This document shows positions 4,547 to 61,093 of a DNA stretch of 64,000 nucleotides, piece after piece. Under the pieces are notes generated by a model. The model saw nothing but the letters and a program-made list of their open reading frames with translations. It had not been told where the DNA came from and did no database searches. A program made the position numbers and the translations under genes. Position 1 is the stretch's first letter. Every line of letters starts with the position of its first letter. Origin of the DNA: Rhea pennata (lineage: Eukaryota > Chordata > Aves > Rheiformes > Rheidae); the NCBI RefSeq assembly GCF_028389875.1, contig NC_084678.1:16770899-16834898 (forward strand), written 5' to 3'.

Positions 4547-7077
4547 AAGGCGGGCGCTGCCCTGCGCCTTCTTCTTCTCCCTTCCGCACGAGCCGTTTCT
4601 AGCTGCTCTTGGGAGTCCTCGAGGGCTTCAGCTCGGCTCCTCCTCGCGAGCGGGGAGGCGTCCGCCGGCGCTCCGGCGCTCTGTTCCGCGCTTAAACTTG
4701 CTGCTAGGAGCTCGCTGCCGCTGGCTTTTCCTTTCTGTCTTTGCAAGCCCATTTGCAAATCTTAAAAACCCAAACAAACCAAACAAAACCCGTGCTCAGG
4801 TTAGCGACAGCGGTCTTCAACAAGGTAAACCTGGGTCGTGGCTCTGCAAATCTTTCAGCCTCAGTTCCCGGCGGAAAGGTTTGTTTTTCTTTCGTTTGCT
4901 CCCTGGCCGGGCTCCCGGCGGGTGCCCGCGGGGCGGAGGGGGCTCGGGCCGCGCTCGGGACCCGGAGAGCTTCCAGCGAAACGAGGAACCCAGAAAGGGC
5001 CAGCGGCAGCTCGATCACAGGGCCCTCTGAGCCTTTCCCAACACCTCTCTAGGCCCGCTCGGGTTTTGCACGGCCGCGATCGCCTGTGCAAAGTTCAGAA
5101 AGAAAAATCCTTCTTTTTTGTAGTTCATTCATTTTTCTCATTTATGGGGCGGGGGAGGGGGAAGCTCTGCCATCAGACTGCAAGGAAAAGGCCGAGAGAT
5201 CCCCTTCCCTGGAGGATGTTAAGGCCTCTGTAGAGTGCGGAAGCCGGTACGGGAATTTCCGCCTTACCTGGTCCACGCGGCCGCGGCCGCCGCGGGGTGC
5301 CGGCGGCAGAGCGGGGCCGGGGCGGCCGCCCAGGCGAGGGGCACCTCGAGGACTGTCCGACCTGAGAATGGTGAAACACGAGGGTCAATCTCAGGTTCGT
5401 CAGCCCACGAGACGCCTTCTCCAGAGCGGGAGAGGCCGCCCGGCGCCCCCGGACGCGCCGCGGCGGAGCGGGGGGGCGGGAACGGGCGCGGGAACGGGCG
5501 CGGGGCGGCCCGGGAGCCGCGGCTCCGAGGCAGGGAGCGCGGGAGCTGCTGCCGCCGGCTCCTTCGGAGCGTCCCGGCAAGCGGAGCCGGCTGACGGCTG
5601 CGGCGTGCCCGGAGCACTGCTGACGCTCGGCTCCCGGCGGCTGGGGCTACAGGAAGAGCAAGTGACAGCCTTAAAAGCGGCAGTAATTAATCCCCAGGCG
5701 GCGCGCGGGGGCTCCTCAGCGATGGCTGCGTCGTTCGTTGGTGATTGGGCCTTAAAAAAAAATGTAAAAAAATTTTTTTTTAAAATCCAAGTTGAGCTTC
5801 CTAAATAAACCGAACGAGCACAAGGCGTGCTTATCGGATTCGCTGCCTTTCCTATAATTCAATGACTAATCCTAAAGCAGAGGGACCTGCAGAAAAACGC
5901 AGCAAAGCGCTACCACCCCCGAGCCGGCCGGGGGGGACAGCGAAAGAGGAGACGGGCTCTGTAGCCGGGGGGCCCCCGAGGCCCAGCGAGGCGCTGCGTA
6001 GCCACGGCCGTAGCCTGGCAGAGCCCTGCCCTACGCGTGCGCCGCGCACACCCGCGCCGCGCGCCCCCGGGTCCCGCGAGTCCCGGCCGTGCAAAGCCCT
6101 GCCGTGCAAGCCGAGGTCCCGGAGCTCGCGTCGCCCTTGCAAAACCCCGGCCGAGAGCCGCGGGGACGGGGCCGCCGCGGTGGAAATGCGCCAGCCCTCG
6201 GCTTCCCGCACCGCAGTTTTCACGCGGCCATCGTGCACAGCAAGCGCAGACCCGGAGCCCGGGATCTCCGGGGAGCTGCCGCGGGCGCCCGGCAGGCAGC
6301 AGCTCCCAGCAGCGCCTCCAGGCTCATTAATTTCCCGGAGAAGCAAGAGCCGCCGGACGAGCTCCCTTCCGACCCTTCCTCGGCGCCCCGCAAGCCGCTT
6401 CGGCTTCGCCTCCGCGTGAGGAACCCAAACGTCCGAAGGAAACGGGCAGGCGGCCGACCCGCCGCTGGAACCTCCGAAGAGGTTCCAGCACGCCCCACGG
6501 AGAACAGTAAATCCTTTAATCGAGTAAACGTTTGCTTTTTGGCTCCTCTGTCAAAATTGTGCCTCTACCTAGAAGCTGGACCCAGGTTAACGCAAGTACG
6601 GAGGCTGCTCCGAGCACCGGGAAAGGACCCGGCGACTCCCTCGCCCGGGGGCTCTGCCGGTCCCGAGGAGACTGGAAAACGGGGGGGTTTTTTGCCCTGC
6701 GGATCGCGCCGTCACCCGTTACTCAGCCCCGGCGCTGCAGGGAGCAGGGGCGCGAGATGCGTGGGGGAGAAGCCAAGCGACGGCGGGCGCAACCCGGCGC
6801 CGGGGCTCCGAGCGCCCGGCCAGGGCGGGTTCCCCCCTCCTCGCAGCCCAGAGCCCTCCTTGCTCCTGCTGCGCGTTCCTCCCAGGGCGCGAGGGAGCGC
6901 GGCGGAGCCCCGGCTCGCCGGCCGGCCGAGCTCGGCTTGGCCCGCTTCAGGGACCCCCCAGAAAGCAGCGTCTCGGGGGTCCCCAGCCAGAGCGTGACTC
7001 TGCTGCGGTTGGCGGGGGGGGAGGCTCGTGCCCTTCACTCAAGTTCTGGTTAATGCGCTTTTCTTTTTCCCCTTTTC

Positions 7078-7103: not shown

Positions 7104-7859
7104 GAAACATTCAATCCTCAGGAGGGAATTTTAATTTTAGAGGCAGCACTTTTGCAAGTTGAAGTGATTGCTTAGCTCCAAGTGCTGAATGATGGAAGCT
7201 CCAGCAGGGAGGGAGGAAAAGGCGAACGAATCGCGTGTACGAGTCCCTCGGCCCCCAATCTGCATCCAGAGGTGCGTCCGCCCTGGGTGAGGAGGCCGAG
7301 AAAAGAACGTTTCCTTTGCGTTCAGCCAAAGGAGGCAAATTGCGCTCCAGAAGCACATTTAAGCTTCTGCAGTGAAGTTTTGATCTGCGTGATATCACGG
7401 AATGAATCACGCGGACGCGCCGGGGAGGACGCCGGGGCGCGCGCTCGCTCGGCAGCTTCTGGAGGAGAAAAGCTCCGCGAACCGACGGGCTGCGAAGCCG
7501 AGCGCGGCGCGGGCAGAGCCCACGCACACGCGTGTGCGCCCGGGCACGCCTGCCACTCGCCCAGCGCCCCGCACACGCCCGCACGGGCACGCGGGGCTTG
7601 GCTTTTCGAGGGGGCCTCGCTTCGGCTTCGGGGTTAAGCACCCGAAAAAGCCGTTTGCTCGCGCCGCGCCGCCCTCCGGGGCCGGGGCTGGGGCGGGTTT
7701 CGGGAGCCTCGGTAGGGGAGCCAGGAGGCCCCGCGGACGCAGACGCCCCTACGCGGGGCTGGAGCGGTTGGTGCCGGAGCAGCCCGGCCCCAGTGCCAGG
7801 GCGGGCGGCAGGTCCCGGGGGTCCATGGGGAGCGGGGGGAATGACTCACCCGCACGTGC

Positions 7860-8499: not shown

Positions 8500-8520
8500 T
8501 TCAGCACCGCGGACAGCGCC
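8500..8520 (+). promoter_or_regulatory. CRH2: RE1/NRSF (REST) binding site
   Basis: Both halves of the 21-base RE1 element are present with standard spacing: TTCAGCACC at 8500-8508, two linker bases, and GGACAGCGCC at 8511-8520. Only a linker base differs from the classical element. REST binding represses neuronal genes in non-neuronal cells. The site lies about 80-110 bases before the CRH2 TATA boxes, where it would restrict the hormone gene to neurons. The match is seen; occupancy is inferred. Confidence 0.85.
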
Positions 8521-8540
8521 CGCCCGCGGCCCCGCGCCGC

Positions 8541-8639
8541 GTCACGTGGGCCGCCCGGTATAGCGCGGTCACGTGTGTGTGGGGGGGGGAACCGCCGCCC
8601 CTATATAGCGCGGTCACGTGGGCCGCCGCCCCTATATAG
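8541..8639 (+). promoter_or_regulatory. CRH2: CRH2 core promoter: three E-box/TATA modules
   Basis: A unit reading GTCACGTG, then GC-rich spacer, then a TATA element is repeated three times. The CACGTG E-boxes lie at 8543-8548, 8570-8575 and 8615-8620. The TATA elements lie at 8559-8563 (degenerate TATAG), 8601-8608 (CTATATAG) and 8632-8639 (CTATATAG). The spacer GGCCGCC and the following GCGCGG are shared between copies, so this is a local duplication. CACGTG is bound by USF, TFE and CLOCK:BMAL1 factors. The last TATA predicts a start near 8,665. Confidence 0.75.
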
Positions 8640-8664
8640 CGCGGCGGCGGGCGCGCGGCGCCGT

Positions 8665-8702
8665 CTGCGGGCGAGGTGCCGCGGCGGAGCGGGCGGCGAG
8701 CG
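8665..8702 (+). other. CRH2: CRH2 non-coding exon 1 (5'UTR)
   Basis: The interval runs from the expected start about 26-30 bases after the last TATA to a splice donor GCG|GTGAGC, with GT at 8703-8704. The matching acceptor, gtcttgcag, ends at 9039. A short untranslated first exon, one intron, and all coding sequence in exon 2 is the known gene structure of the CRH family. The 5' end is approximate. Confidence 0.55.
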
Positions 8703-8769
8703 GTGAGCGGCGCCGGGGGGAGCCGGGACCCCCGCGAAGCAGCGCCTCCCTCGGGCTCCCCACGGGAGG

Positions 8770-8975
8770 GGGGCGGTCCCGTCCTGGGGGGGGGGGGATC
8801 CCCGTCCCTGGGGGGTCCCGTCGCAGGGACGGGGGGGGGGGGTATGAATGGTCCCCATCCCCGAGAGGGTCCCGTTGCGGGGGGGGGGGGGGGGTCCCAT
8901 TCCCAAGGGGGTCTAGTCACAGGGATGGGGGGGTCCCCATCCCCGGGGGTCCCGTCTTGGGGGGAGGGGGAGTTT
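8770..8975. repeat. G-rich minisatellite in CRH2 intron 1
   Basis: About seven degenerate units built from GGTCCCRT, a G run and TCCCCATCCC fill most of the 336-base intron. G runs reach 16 bases (8879-8894). The transcribed strand would be strongly G-rich, with many possible G-quadruplexes. Confidence 0.75.
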
Positions 8976-9063
8976 CCAGCCCCGCAGACAGCCCTGACCG
9001 CAGCGGGGGGCTCTGGGGGGGTGTGGGGGTGTCTTGCAGGCGCCCGGCCCCGGAGCGGCTGCG

Positions 9064-9465
9064 ATGCGGGTCAGGATGATTTCGGCTGCCTCGGTCCTCG
9101 TCCTGCTCTTCCTGCCCTCGGAGACCTGCTCGCCCCTGCAGTGGCCCCGGGGCCCGGCCCGCCGCCTCGCCCCGGCCCCCCAGCCCACCTGGGAGCCCTG
9201 GCCAGGAGCCACGCGGCCCCCGCTGCCCGACGCCAGCCCCCCGGCCCAGAGACTGCCCCAGCTCTGCCCGCCCCACGGGGCAGAGCCCTCGGCGGCCCCC
9301 CGGGCCCAGCGGGCGCTGCACGCCGGCAGGCGGCGGGACGGCAAACCCAACTCCCTGGACCTCACCTTCCACCTGCTCCGCGAGTTCCTGGAGATGTCCC
9401 GGGAGGAGAGACTGGCCCAGAAGGCGCTGAGCAATAAGCTGTTGCTGCAAAGTATAGGGAAGTGA
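9064..9465 (+). CDS. CRH2: Corticotropin-releasing hormone 2 precursor
   Basis: A secreted neuropeptide precursor of 133 residues that acts through class B CRH receptors. Residues 1 to about 22 form a signal peptide (hydrophobic core ISAASVLVLLFLP). Residues 23-91 are a Pro/Arg-rich propeptide with a dibasic site at 33-34. RRR at 89-91 is the convertase site. Residues 92-131 are a predicted 40-residue mature peptide beginning DGKPNSLDLTFHLLREFLEM. The final GK (132-133) provides C-terminal amidation. From SLDLTF onward, 24 of 35 positions equal human CRH (human sequence from memory), with a one-residue shorter N-terminus. This is the pattern of the CRH2 paralogue kept in birds and other vertebrates but lost in placental mammals, rather than CRH1 or the urocortins. 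The ATG is the first after the acceptor at 9039. The whole protein is in one exon, as in CRH. Confidence 0.93.
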   Translation: MRVRMISAASVLVLLFLPSETCSPLQWPRGPARRLAPAPQPTWEPWPGATRPPLPDASPPAQRLPQLCPPHGAEPSAAPRAQRALHAGRRRDGKPNSLDLTFHLLREFLEMSREERLAQKALSNKLLLQSIGK

Positions 9466-9605
9466 GGGGGGGGGGAGGTTCAACGGAGACGCGCCCCACA
9501 GCAAGCGGCGGGGGGCTGGCCGCGCTCCCCGGGGCGGGGGGCGGCGTCCCCTCCGGGGGGGCCCCGCGCACCCTGCTGTCCCGCGCATCCTCCTCCCTGT
9601 TCTGC

Positions 9606-9611
9606 ATTAAA
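9606..9611 (+). terminator. CRH2: CRH2 polyadenylation signal ATTAAA
   Basis: ATTAAA, the commonest variant signal, lies 141 bases after the CRH2 stop. This gives a short 3'UTR ending near 9,630. No AATAAA occurs nearer. Confidence 0.65.
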
Positions 9612-10577
9612 GTCGCCCTCGCACCTGCCCCGTGCCGTGCTCTGGCGCTCGCGCGGGGACACCGCTCCGCCGGGACGCACGGCTGCGCGGCGCCTCGAAG
9701 CGCCGGCTGCTCCCCGCGCGCCCCCGCCGACCCTCCCCGCGTCTCACCTGAAACGCCGGCGTGGAGCAAGCGCGTGGCCGGTTCTCCCTGCTTGCGCAGG
9801 GCTGAGATTTCTCCAGCTCCGCTCCGCTGCACGCGGCGCTCGGGGGTGTCGTGGCTGGCTCCCACGCTCCGGTCTGGATCTGGGGGGAAAAAAGAAAAAA
9901 GAAAAAAAAAAAAACAGAAAATGCACCACCCATCGGCAGCGGCCGCCCGAGCCGGGTCTCGGGTGCACCGCTGGGCTGCGAGGGCCCTGCCCCAGCTGCC
10001 CCTTTGGTTAAGGGGGGAAGTGAAGCCCTTTGCCCGGGGCACCCCACAGCACCGAGTGTCGGGCAGGCGGCAGGATCCTACCGGGCTTTTCTGCTCGACG
10101 GTTTACGATCCCCCCGTTTCTCCCTGGTGCCGTAAGCAACGCGAGGAGGCGGCGGGCGCAGGGGCGGGGGGGGGGGCGCGGAGGGGGCCGCGCCGCACCA
10201 AGCCCGTCCCGGCTCTCGGGGCGCCCCTCCTTCGGGGACCCAGGGCCCCGGGGAGCTGCCGGCGCACGTGGGGCTGATCCCCCCTGCGGGCTCCCGGGGC
10301 TTCCTTGCAGCCCTGTTAACCAGCCCAGAAGAGCGCCGGTGGCTCCCCGCGCCGAGCGGCAAGCGCAGCTAAAAATACACTCGCGCCGAGCCAGCGAGAG
10401 CGATTCTGGGTCTTGCACCTTGCGGGAACACAAAGTTTGATCTTCTTTGAAGTAGGCTGGTATTTACACGGGGCACGCTTGCCTCACACGGATAATGTGC
10501 TGTGATCATCCTGTGGGCTGGCTTTTAGGCTTTTATTCTTTTATTCTTTTTTTGGTGAAGGTATATTTTCTCCTATT

Positions 10578-52849: not shown

Positions 52850-53300
52850 GCCTGGTCCCATCCCCCTCAGCCCCGCAACATCCCCCCCATGCCTCTCTCT
52901 TGCCTGGTCCATCCCCTCAGCCCCCCAGTATCCTCCACATCCTATTGCTAGGCCTGGCCCCATCCCCTCAGCCCCCCCATCCCACCCTCATGCCTGGCCT
53001 TCATCCTCCTCAGCCAGCTAATAACCCCCCCATCCCCTCAGCCCCCCAATGCCCCCCCCTCTTACCCTCCGGCTTTGCCCTGTCCCCTCAGCCCCCCAAT
53101 ATCCCCTCACCTCACCCCCCCGCCTGGCCCCGGCCCCATCCCCTCAGCCCCTAATATCTCCCCATCTCACCCCTAGGCTTGGTCCCATCCCCTCAGCCCC
53201 CCCAATATCCCCTCATCTCACCCCCATGGCTCCATCCCCTCAGCCCCCCAGTATCCCCCCGGCCTGGCCCCGTCCCCTCAGCGCCCCCCATCCCGCTTCC
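52850..53300. repeat. C-rich minisatellite in DNAJC5 intron 1
   Basis: About ten degenerate units are built around CCCATCCCCTCAGCCCCCC followed by AATATCCCC or similar, with spacing of roughly 36-58 bases. The G-rich complement is the sense strand of DNAJC5 and lies 130-580 bases inside intron 1. The Pro/Ser-rich open frames across it are artefacts. Looser C-rich sequence extends it to about 52,550. Confidence 0.8.
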
Positions 53301-53432
53301 CCGCCTGGCCGCCCCCGGCCGCCCGCGCCGCAGCGCCCCCCCCCCGGCACCGCCACCTCCATCTTGGCGTCCGGCCTGCGGGCCGGGCCCGGCGGGGCGA
53401 GCGAGGCCCCAGCCGCGCCGCGCCGCGCTCAC

Positions 53433-54023: not shown

Positions 54024-54095
54024 TTCCCTGACCGGGAATCGAACCCGGGCCGCGGCGGTGAGAGCGCCGAATCCTAACCACTAGACCACCAGGGA
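54024..54095 (-). tRNA. tRNA-Glu (anticodon CTC)
   Basis: A 72-base nuclear tRNA gene on the minus strand. Its 5' end begins TCCCTGGTGGTCTAGTGG, its 3' end is TCAGGGAA, and the 7-base acceptor strands pair. The anticodon loop is CTCTCAC on a five-pair stem, with the CTC anticodon at 54,060-54,062. The T arm holds GGTTCGATTCC, the Pol III B box, and TGGTCTAGTGG serves as the A box. It matches the vertebrate tRNA-Glu-CTC sequence I know. It has no intron, and CCA is not encoded. A run of T on the minus strand (complement of 54,011-54,016) is the Pol III terminator. It lies about 300 bases upstream of the DNAJC5 promoter in the same orientation. Confidence 0.97.
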
Positions 54096-58560: not shown

Positions 58561-58656
58561 CTAGAAAGGAGCATTGTCTTGTGGAGGCTTGTCTCCAGCT
58601 CCTGGCGGGGAGTGGAGGCCATCAGTGCTATTTTCCCTGCTGCCCACCACTCTGGA
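58561..58656 (-). CDS. TPD52L2: TPD52L2 terminal coding exon
   Basis: Acceptor ctcctttcag precedes 58656. Thirty-one codons are followed by TAG at 58561-58563. The residue block SRVVGSREN matches the family SKVVG block. The last residues NAPF keep the hydrophobic end of the family. Confidence 0.92.
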   Translation of the reverse strand, partial: SRVVGSRENSTDGLHSPPGAGDKPPQDNAPF

Positions 58657-61093
58657 CTGAAAGGAGAAAAGAGAGTTAGGATAATAAGAAACCAACACTG
58701 AGAATGACAAGTAAATTCTCCTTTGTCAAGGTCACCTCCCGTAGCAAAGACTTCATGCATCTGAGAGGCCTTTTGCCTGAATACTAGTCTACAAGAAAAA
58801 CATGGCAGAAATTAAAGTTTCTGCCTAAGATTTCACACTATGTTTATGAGACAGAGGAGACAGTTACCTTTATGGTTCCAACTCTATCTTCAAATGACTT
58901 GAAGGTTGCAGAATTCCTTGAAGAAAAGAAGGAAAAAATAAAAAAAGACAAGACGACAAGTTAGTTCTTAACTAAAATAGGCCACCCACTGTGACCAGGC
59001 TCTCTTGCCCTTCCCATGTAAGAGCAGTAGTACCCAAACACTTCTAGCTCCTCACTCAGCTGTCTTGTGGCATGAATCTCACACACAGGCAGAAGCACTA
59101 CATACAAACTCTAAAGACAGACATTTATACCACAGGGGTCTGTGCACTCCAATTTACCTGCCTAAGCAGAGAACTTAGTTGGAAGCCTTGTAAAACTAAG
59201 AATTAGTTTGTTTTCTGCTTATACGCTGACTCTCTAGTGATTTTTTTTTTTAACTAAAAGCATACTTTCTTAAATAATGGAGAGAAAAAGCTGAAAAAGA
59301 TTTAAAGGCTTCACTTTCCCATATTACATCCTGCTGGCAGAACAGGAAGAGCTATGTGCATGAACCTGCAAGATTTTTACTGACACAGAAGTGATCATTT
59401 ACATCAGGAAATACTCTTAGAACCTCAGCACAACAAATTAAGCAGAAAAATTCATATTTCTAACGAAGATAAGCCAGTCATTTGACAATCTGAACAGCTT
59501 TTCCACTTGTGAATGATTCCAAGGAGTGCTCTGTACTGAGCTTTCAGACCAGGCAATTATTCATACAGAGTTATTTTCCCTGCATAAGCACCAGGAGCTG
59601 GGAAGTGACTAGCCTCATCCTAGTTACTTTTACTCAGATTCATATTTGTGCCCATAAAATAGCCTCTGTCAATGTGAAACGAAGATGAATAGGGAGAGCT
59701 TCTGTAGGCCTGGTCCAGTTTTAGCAATCGTTTGTCCTACATGGAGATCTGATGCACCATGAAGGCATTTTGAGAAGAGCTCCTAGCTTCTAAGCTAGAG
59801 ACAGAAGATTCAAGTTAGGATTCACCTTAGTATTAGTAATGGCTGTGCTGCACATTGTAAGAGGAGAACTGTAATCCCCTTCAGGGACCTCTGAAAGCTA
59901 CACGTTTCAGGTAGACTTTGGTACAGCTGCAACAGCGCACTTAGTCTATTTTGATAGTTATTAGCACCTGTAGTGTTCTCGGACTAACAAAGCCTTGAAT
60001 TACTCAAGCTGCAGGACACAGCTACCCCATAATCAAAGTAGCATCAGTTGAAGTGAACCAATTGCACAAATTAGAACCCAAAATCCCCCACAGGGCACAG
60101 TCTGCTACATATCCCACCTACCCCACTCAGGAGAGACAGGGGTTTGCTACATTACCTCATCGTTGGCATACTTATCGAGTGGCGAATGGAGTAACTGCTA
60201 CTTGGAAGCATTCAGAGCAAGGAGGAAAGAGTTAGACAACAATTTTAAATAGACATTGTGTAAAAGCAGTTTACCCCCACTTCCAAGCACTTGCTGCCAC
60301 ACACAGGCTGCTGTGGACAACTGAAGCAATAAGAGCTAGCCCTCTCTTCCCTTATTTTCACAGCCTGCAGCTCAGAACTAGTTCTGTATCATAGGACTGT
60401 TAGCATGAGTACTTAACTGAGAAAGCGAACAAGCAGAAAATGAACATAGCGCATCATTTAAAAGCTCTTCTAAATTTGATGGACAGATCTGCTTATGTCA
60501 GTACACGGAAGCAAATCTCCCACAACACAATCCTTAGAAAAGAGGTTTTTAACTATGCTCAAGACAAGAGACACCTGGCCTATGATCAAAAATCTGATGG
60601 ATGCAGAGGTGAGGCATGGGCACCTCTAGGAGACAAAAAAATGTGCATGACCGGTTTTACTGTATCAAGTTACTCACATTATCAAGTTTTACTAGCAAAG
60701 ACTTCTTGCCCCAGGTTTTCTTTCCCAAAACTTGGGCTGACAGAAAGACGCAAAAGCATGCAGCAAGTGCTACCAAAAGGTACGCTGAACCATAAGCTTT
60801 CAAATTGGTAAGTTGTTGTAAACTGCTCATGGTCCCATTATATTATAATTAAGCTAGGGGTCTCATACTTGCAGTTGTGTTATATTCTTAACCTGCACTG
60901 CAAGTTGCAGCCATGATATAAAAATTATAGGAGATGATTTTAGCTAGATTTCTCATTCCATTTCAAAAGCATTGACAAGCTTTACATAATCAGCCTCCCC
61001 TTTAACATCTGCAAAGACTTGGCAAAGTAACATATGCTCATTTAGTAGCCTTGAAGAATATCTTACCTAAAGGAATGCGAGAAGGGATGAGCC
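58561..61093 (-). CDS. TPD52L2: Tumor protein D52-like 2 (D54), 3' coding exons (partial gene)
   Basis: A member of the TPD52 family of small coiled-coil proteins that form homo- and heteromers and act in vesicle trafficking. Four exons are in the window, in transcript order: 61067-61093, 60156-60197, 58868-58916 and 58561-58656. Joined in frame they give AHPFSHSFS, SYSIRHSISMPTMR, NSATFKSFEDRVGTIK and SRVVGSRENSTDGLHSPPGA followed by GDKPPQDNAPF and stop. These correspond to the end of human TPD52L2, which finishes DPAPF. The coiled-coil region and start codon are upstream, beyond 64,000. The minus orientation beside DNAJC5 agrees with vertebrate synteny. Confidence 0.93.
58868..58916 (-). 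CDS. TPD52L2: TPD52L2 exon NSATFKSFEDRVGTIK
   Basis: A 49-base exon with acceptor ttcttcaag before 58916 and donor AAG|GTAACT after 58868. It is the most conserved stretch of the family C-terminal half. The first base completes an Arg codon split with the preceding exon. Confidence 0.95.
60156..60197 (-). CDS. TPD52L2: TPD52L2 42-base cassette exon
   Basis: The acceptor reads ccaagtag and the donor ATGAG|GTAATG. It encodes 14 residues, SYSIRHSISMPTMR when joined. The length is divisible by three and both borders are in the same phase, so the exon can be included or skipped without changing the frame. Human TPD52L2 has the corresponding alternative segment. Confidence 0.9.
61067..61093 (-). 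CDS. TPD52L2: TPD52L2 27-base microexon
   Basis: The acceptor reads gtttcctcag and the donor TTTAG|GTAAGA. It encodes AHPFSHSFS with split codons at both ends. At 27 bases it is a microexon that leaves the frame intact when skipped, and it is known as an optional segment in the family. Confidence 0.9.
   Translation of the reverse strand, partial: GSSLLAFL

Follow-up and report, generated by a model that had tools for sequence, protein, structure and literature searches.

Within the window, a 64,000-nucleotide stretch of Rhea pennata DNA, the gene order is UCKL1(+), CRH2(+), DNAJC5(-), TPD52L2(-). The genes around CRH2 were located by tblastn, with human reference proteins as queries. The left flank is the last coding exon of UCKL1 (positions 122-196, + strand; 72% over 25 amino acids [aa], E value of 1e-6), whose reading closes with a stop codon at 197-199. 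The right flank consists of DNAJC5 coding exons on the - strand, placed at 27802-27695, 25456-25238, ~23594-23424, and 22644-22543 from tblastn matches and splice contexts; three segments matched at 97 to 100%, and the one at 23636-23424 matched at 75%, with the match extending into intron. TPD52L2, the next gene past DNAJC5, was represented by 3′ coding segments at 58564-58909 (-; two tblastn matches with E values of 6e-7 and 3e-4). CRH2 lies somewhat nearer the UCKL1 stop (~8.5 kb) than the DNAJC5 coding end (~13 kb). A previous sequence-only reading had set CRH2 between UCKL1 and DNAJC5, and both flanks were matched by tblastn with the human queries. In excerpts of PMC9353778, uckl1 and dnajc5 are named around crh2 (the crh2 paralogon) in ray-finned fishes.

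A mir-1388 precursor (5332-5424, +) occupies the gap from UCKL1 to CRH2; it shares the CRH2 strand, sits 3.2 kb upstream of that gene, and aligned to Rfam RF01945 over its full length (90.8 bits versus a gathering score of 58; E value of 4e-19). ARAGORN and Rfam also identified a tRNA-Glu (CTC) at 54024-54095 (-), in a GC-rich part that separates TPD52L2 from the coding exons of DNAJC5. GC content is 59 to 74% at 8 to 14 kb and 33 to 41% at 14 to 52 kb, the AT-rich part within which the DNAJC5 coding exons fall, and the window is GC-rich again at 52 to 56 kb.

The coding sequence of CRH2 is an uninterrupted single-exon frame (9064-9465, +) that runs from ATG to the stop codon at 9463-9465 and encodes a 133-aa precursor (MRVRMISAASVLVLLFLPSE...AGRRRDGKPNSLDLTFHLLREFLEMSREERLAQKALSNKLLLQSIGK). 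Reading the translation alongside an alignment of relatives divided prepro-CRH2 into a leader, an RRR cleavage site (9328-9336, +) directly before a mature peptide of 40 aa (9337-9456, +), and a GK amidation signal (9457-9462, +) directly after it. CRF (PF00473) was the sole Pfam family above cutoff (4e-08; 33.6 bits versus a cutoff of 22.1), and the top match by sequence among solved structures was PDB corticoliberin 6p9x_P (5e-09). Across all six frames, the window holds a single instance of the core motif S[LI]DLTFH[LI]LRE. GC content of the coding sequence is 72.9% (70.9/57.5/90.3% at codon positions 1/2/3). A chance open reading frame (ORF) was rejected on the basis of the CRF domain, the corticoliberin structure match, and the relatives described below. 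The translation and the Pfam CRF match agree with the previous description of a complete second CRH with RRR, an SLDLTFHLLRE core, and GK, and the coding sequence is GC-rich, as that description had it.

We predicted two exons for the transcript. Exon 1 (8668-8702, +) would be 5′ untranslated; its 3′ end was taken from the GTGAGC donor, and its 5′ end was set by analogy with the 35-bp exon 1 of chicken. It would be followed by an intron of 337 bp (8703-9039, +; GT...AG), which has a GC content of 76.6% and holds G runs of up to 16, and by exon 2 (9040-9629, +), which would contain the entire coding sequence and the 3′ untranslated region, with an ATTAAA polyadenylation signal at 9606 and an approximate 3′ end. 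At the predicted 8702/9040 junction, the donor reads GCG/GTGAGC after 8702 and the acceptor reads TGTCTTGCAG/GC, ending at 9039; both sites match splice signals well. By eye, an eagle model reads ...AAS/G at this place, like the GCGGCGAGCG end in the window. Chicken CRH2, as described in PMC6727040, was cloned by RACE; its exon 1 measures 35 bp and its intron 416 bp, coding sequence is confined to exon 2, and ATTAAA is present. The layout predicted here, together with the TATA box and ATTAAA, fits that gene. The splice signals expected of a CRH-type two-exon structure, another claim of the sequence-only reading, are present at 8702/9040, as in chicken.

A presumed CRH2 promoter (8541-8651, +) is marked by direct repeats. 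It contains three copies of a TATAGCGCGG module (at 8559, 8604, and 8635), three copies of TCACGTG (at 8542, 8569, and 8614), and a TATA box, TATATAG, at 8602 and 8633. Where chicken, tit, and blackbird models run on through the promoter, their translations look similar by eye; the TATAGCGCGG module looks common to birds, and the window perhaps has one copy more, as judged by eye against the chicken read-through model. The repeated TATAGCGCGG/TCACGTG module may be a detail not yet described.

Relatives of the predicted precursor were collected in three protein searches. In the first, 102 of 225 candidates passed an E value of 10, and a CRF domain was present in each row. The top relative after the window itself was an ostrich "corticoliberin-like" protein (P0002; 88% over 100% of its length), followed by many birds and then by turtles, squamates, a salamander, and ray-finned fishes; a tinamou fragment showed 92% identity across 29% of the query. 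Both the ostrich and the tinamou match point to a palaeognath source. The alignment search returned 845 of 6293 candidates at an E value of 0.001, and sharks and two teleosts were also among the matches listed from the best 120 of these 845. Most CRH1 rows came from the search with human prepro-CRH (652 of 2125 candidates; best 120 of 652 considered). CRH1 entries were present for kiwi (P0227) and ostrich (P0234), and ostrich has entries for both CRH1 and CRH2 (P0002).

The best bird relatives bear the names "corticoliberin-like" or "CRF protein." Among the other CRH2 relatives, P0104 (Melospiza georgiana) was automatically named "E3 ubiquitin-protein ligase synoviolin-like," P0105 (duck) was automatically named "cleavage and polyadenylation specificity factor subunit 6-like," and P0068 (Pelodiscus, softshell turtle) was labelled "urocortin" by its source. 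The earlier suggestion that the gene is easily missed by annotation held up in part: some models are misnamed, but many birds, ostrich included, have CRH2 annotated.

To place the peptide among its family, we built a tree of 38 rows, comprising the mature cores of 34 of 240 proteins and four urocortin-type peptides, with no bird urocortin among them. Rows were labelled beforehand, and the shark and teleost rows were labelled CRH2. A branch supported at 99/97 set apart all 25 rows labelled CRH2, the window among them, in this tree of 39 columns. Of its 21 inner branches, 14 are open; the urocortin branches are flagged as long, and the CRH1 rows form no supported clade. The window core is identical at 39/39 residues to the CRH2 cores of ostrich, eagle, cuckoo, magpie goose, scaled quail, and chicken and differs from that of macaw at 3 of 39. 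Identity is 25/39 to seven tetrapod CRH1 rows (64% to bird CRH1) and 15/39 to human UCN1. The core identities point the same way as the tree.

CRH1, CRH2, and urocortins all fall in Pfam CRF, and bird CRH1 (kiwi P0227 and ostrich P0234) shares with the window gene the SLDLTFHLLRE core and the C-terminal GK. Even with the "urocortin" label of the softshell-turtle relative added, it is vanishingly improbable that the window gene is the usual CRH1 of this bird or one of its urocortins. Against it stand the 25 of 39 core residues shared with bird CRH1 versus 39 of 39 with several bird CRH2 proteins, the 99/97 branch that separates CRH2 rows from CRH1 rows, the separate CRH1 and CRH2 entries of ostrich, and the UCKL1/DNAJC5 flanks, which PMC9353778 names as members of the crh2 paralogon. 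The same paper assigns CRH1 to a different paralogon. A genome-doubling origin is given in PMC7406891 and PMC4602089. Bird CRH1 precursors also differ in length (175 to 178 aa versus 133 aa in the window). CRH1 and urocortin identities were rejected on core identity and the tree split, in line with the previous claim that the peptide belongs with CRH2, which the 39-column tree (99/97) upholds.

We consider it nearly certain that the window gene is an intact avian CRH2 (crh2), orthologous to that of other birds and still at the conserved UCKL1-DNAJC5 location; it presumably works as chicken CRH2 does. The ORF, motifs, orthology, gene order, and splice and polyadenylation signals were computed here. 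Compared with chicken CRH2 (KU887752; excerpts of PMC6727040), the mature peptide is 40 aa in both and identical at 39/40 residues (model P0072), and both genes have two exons (predicted here), coding sequence in exon 2, ATTAAA, and high GC. The two differ in the precursor (133 aa in the window versus 107 aa), the intron (337 bp, predicted, versus 416 bp), the first mature residue (D versus E), and the residues before the peptide (RRR versus KRR). The ostrich precursor P0002 is 88% identical throughout with an identical mature core; it has 135 aa, KRR in place of RRR, and propeptide changes.

The gene could also be an orthologue that is intact in appearance but has lost its expression, i.e., a fresh pseudogene; CRH2 has been lost many times among vertebrates, according to excerpts of PMC9353778. 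Here, however, the frame, mature peptide, cleavage and amidation signals, splice signals, TATA box, and polyadenylation signal show no damage, and distant birds have the same peptide core, which makes recent silencing highly improbable.

For a functional CRH2, transcription, processing, receptor preference, and physiology were carried over from chicken and from general peptide-hormone knowledge. According to PMC6727040, the potency of chicken CRH2 is ~15 times higher at CRHR2 than at CRHR1. The gene is expressed widely, brain and pituitary included, and the peptide stimulates expression of TSH-beta and, with lower potency, secretion of ACTH. By analogy, the TATA promoter would drive a two-exon transcript, the prepropeptide would enter the secretory route, and a prohormone convertase would cleave after RRR. 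The lysine would be removed, and the C-terminal glycine would then become an amide. The resulting 40-residue helical peptide would activate CRH receptors, CRHR2 more than CRHR1, presumably in brain and pituitary (TSH and ACTH).

In 11 relatives, the N-terminal extension of the protein was compared with the window sequence. The GC-rich window gives many low-complexity matches, some of them, among the matches listed, as strong as 1.6e-8; that of the blackbird extension at 53170-53391 (1.6e-8) is presumed to be low complexity. Five extension pieces were searched in the window and, as a control, in the reversed window. Only the eagle piece was clear (best E value of 1e-8 versus 0.35 in the control). 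The first 15 residues of eagle model P0004 (isoform X1) are identical (15/15) to window positions 7189-7233 (+), ~1.4 kb upstream of exon 1, and the match, over the stretch 7189-7251 (+), diverges beyond them; this stretch may be an upstream first exon or, alternatively, a conserved control element. The sparrow exon at mir-1388 gave a suggestive match (2e-5 versus 7e-4 in the control, with the next-best window place at 2e-4). The window frame matching sparrow model P0104 is 5391-5450, and an exon of this model seems to start within the mir-1388 hairpin, in its 3′ arm, and to connect to CRH2. Negative results were obtained for the sparrow first exon (0.05 in the window versus 0.5 in the reversed window), the finch first exon (0.13 versus 0.18), and the sea-turtle start (0.14 versus 0.03), and a + strand pattern search of the window for the MADSS first exon gave no match.

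These matches raise the question of whether bird CRH2 also has a longer transcript, with an upstream start, that runs through mir-1388. We regard this as unlikely; the idea comes from protein gene models and translated matches rather than reads. If it were true, a stress peptide and a microRNA would lie in one transcription unit, and the repeated TATAGCGCGG module would be a second start. The open-licence literature yielded no paper with both mir-1388 and crh2, nor with both mir-1388 and uckl1.

As stated in excerpts of PMC9353778, crh2 was kept in sauropsids, monotremes, and marsupials and lost in eutherians and anurans, in agreement with its previously claimed absence from placental mammals. 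The sequence-only reading also named the UCKL1-DNAJC5 interval as the exact place of that loss, a location that gene order suggests. Excerpts of PMC2761914 report mir-1388 in cow, horse, and platypus, without a human orthologue. If mir-1388 still lies in the cow and horse interval, the loss of CRH2 did not take the entire interval with it, and the presence of mir-1388 in cow and horse but not human leads us to conjecture that mammals may have lost parts of the interval one after another. The GC content of the chicken CRH2 cDNA (~72%) was offered in PMC6727040 as a reason the gene had been missed. No paper with both crh2 and ostrich was found in the open-licence literature.

The window gene is a known gene correctly recognised, the bird version of CRH2, whose eutherian loss is already in print; this second CRH gene is retained by birds, reptiles, and many fishes. 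Because CRH2, its distribution, and its loss have been published, current views are unchanged. CRH2 shows that two CRH genes once served the stress axis of vertebrates, of which eutherians dropped one. With a clean copy of CRH2 from a near relative of ostrich, this picture gains one lineage, and the intact interval described here could serve as a reference for comparing any mammalian remnant.
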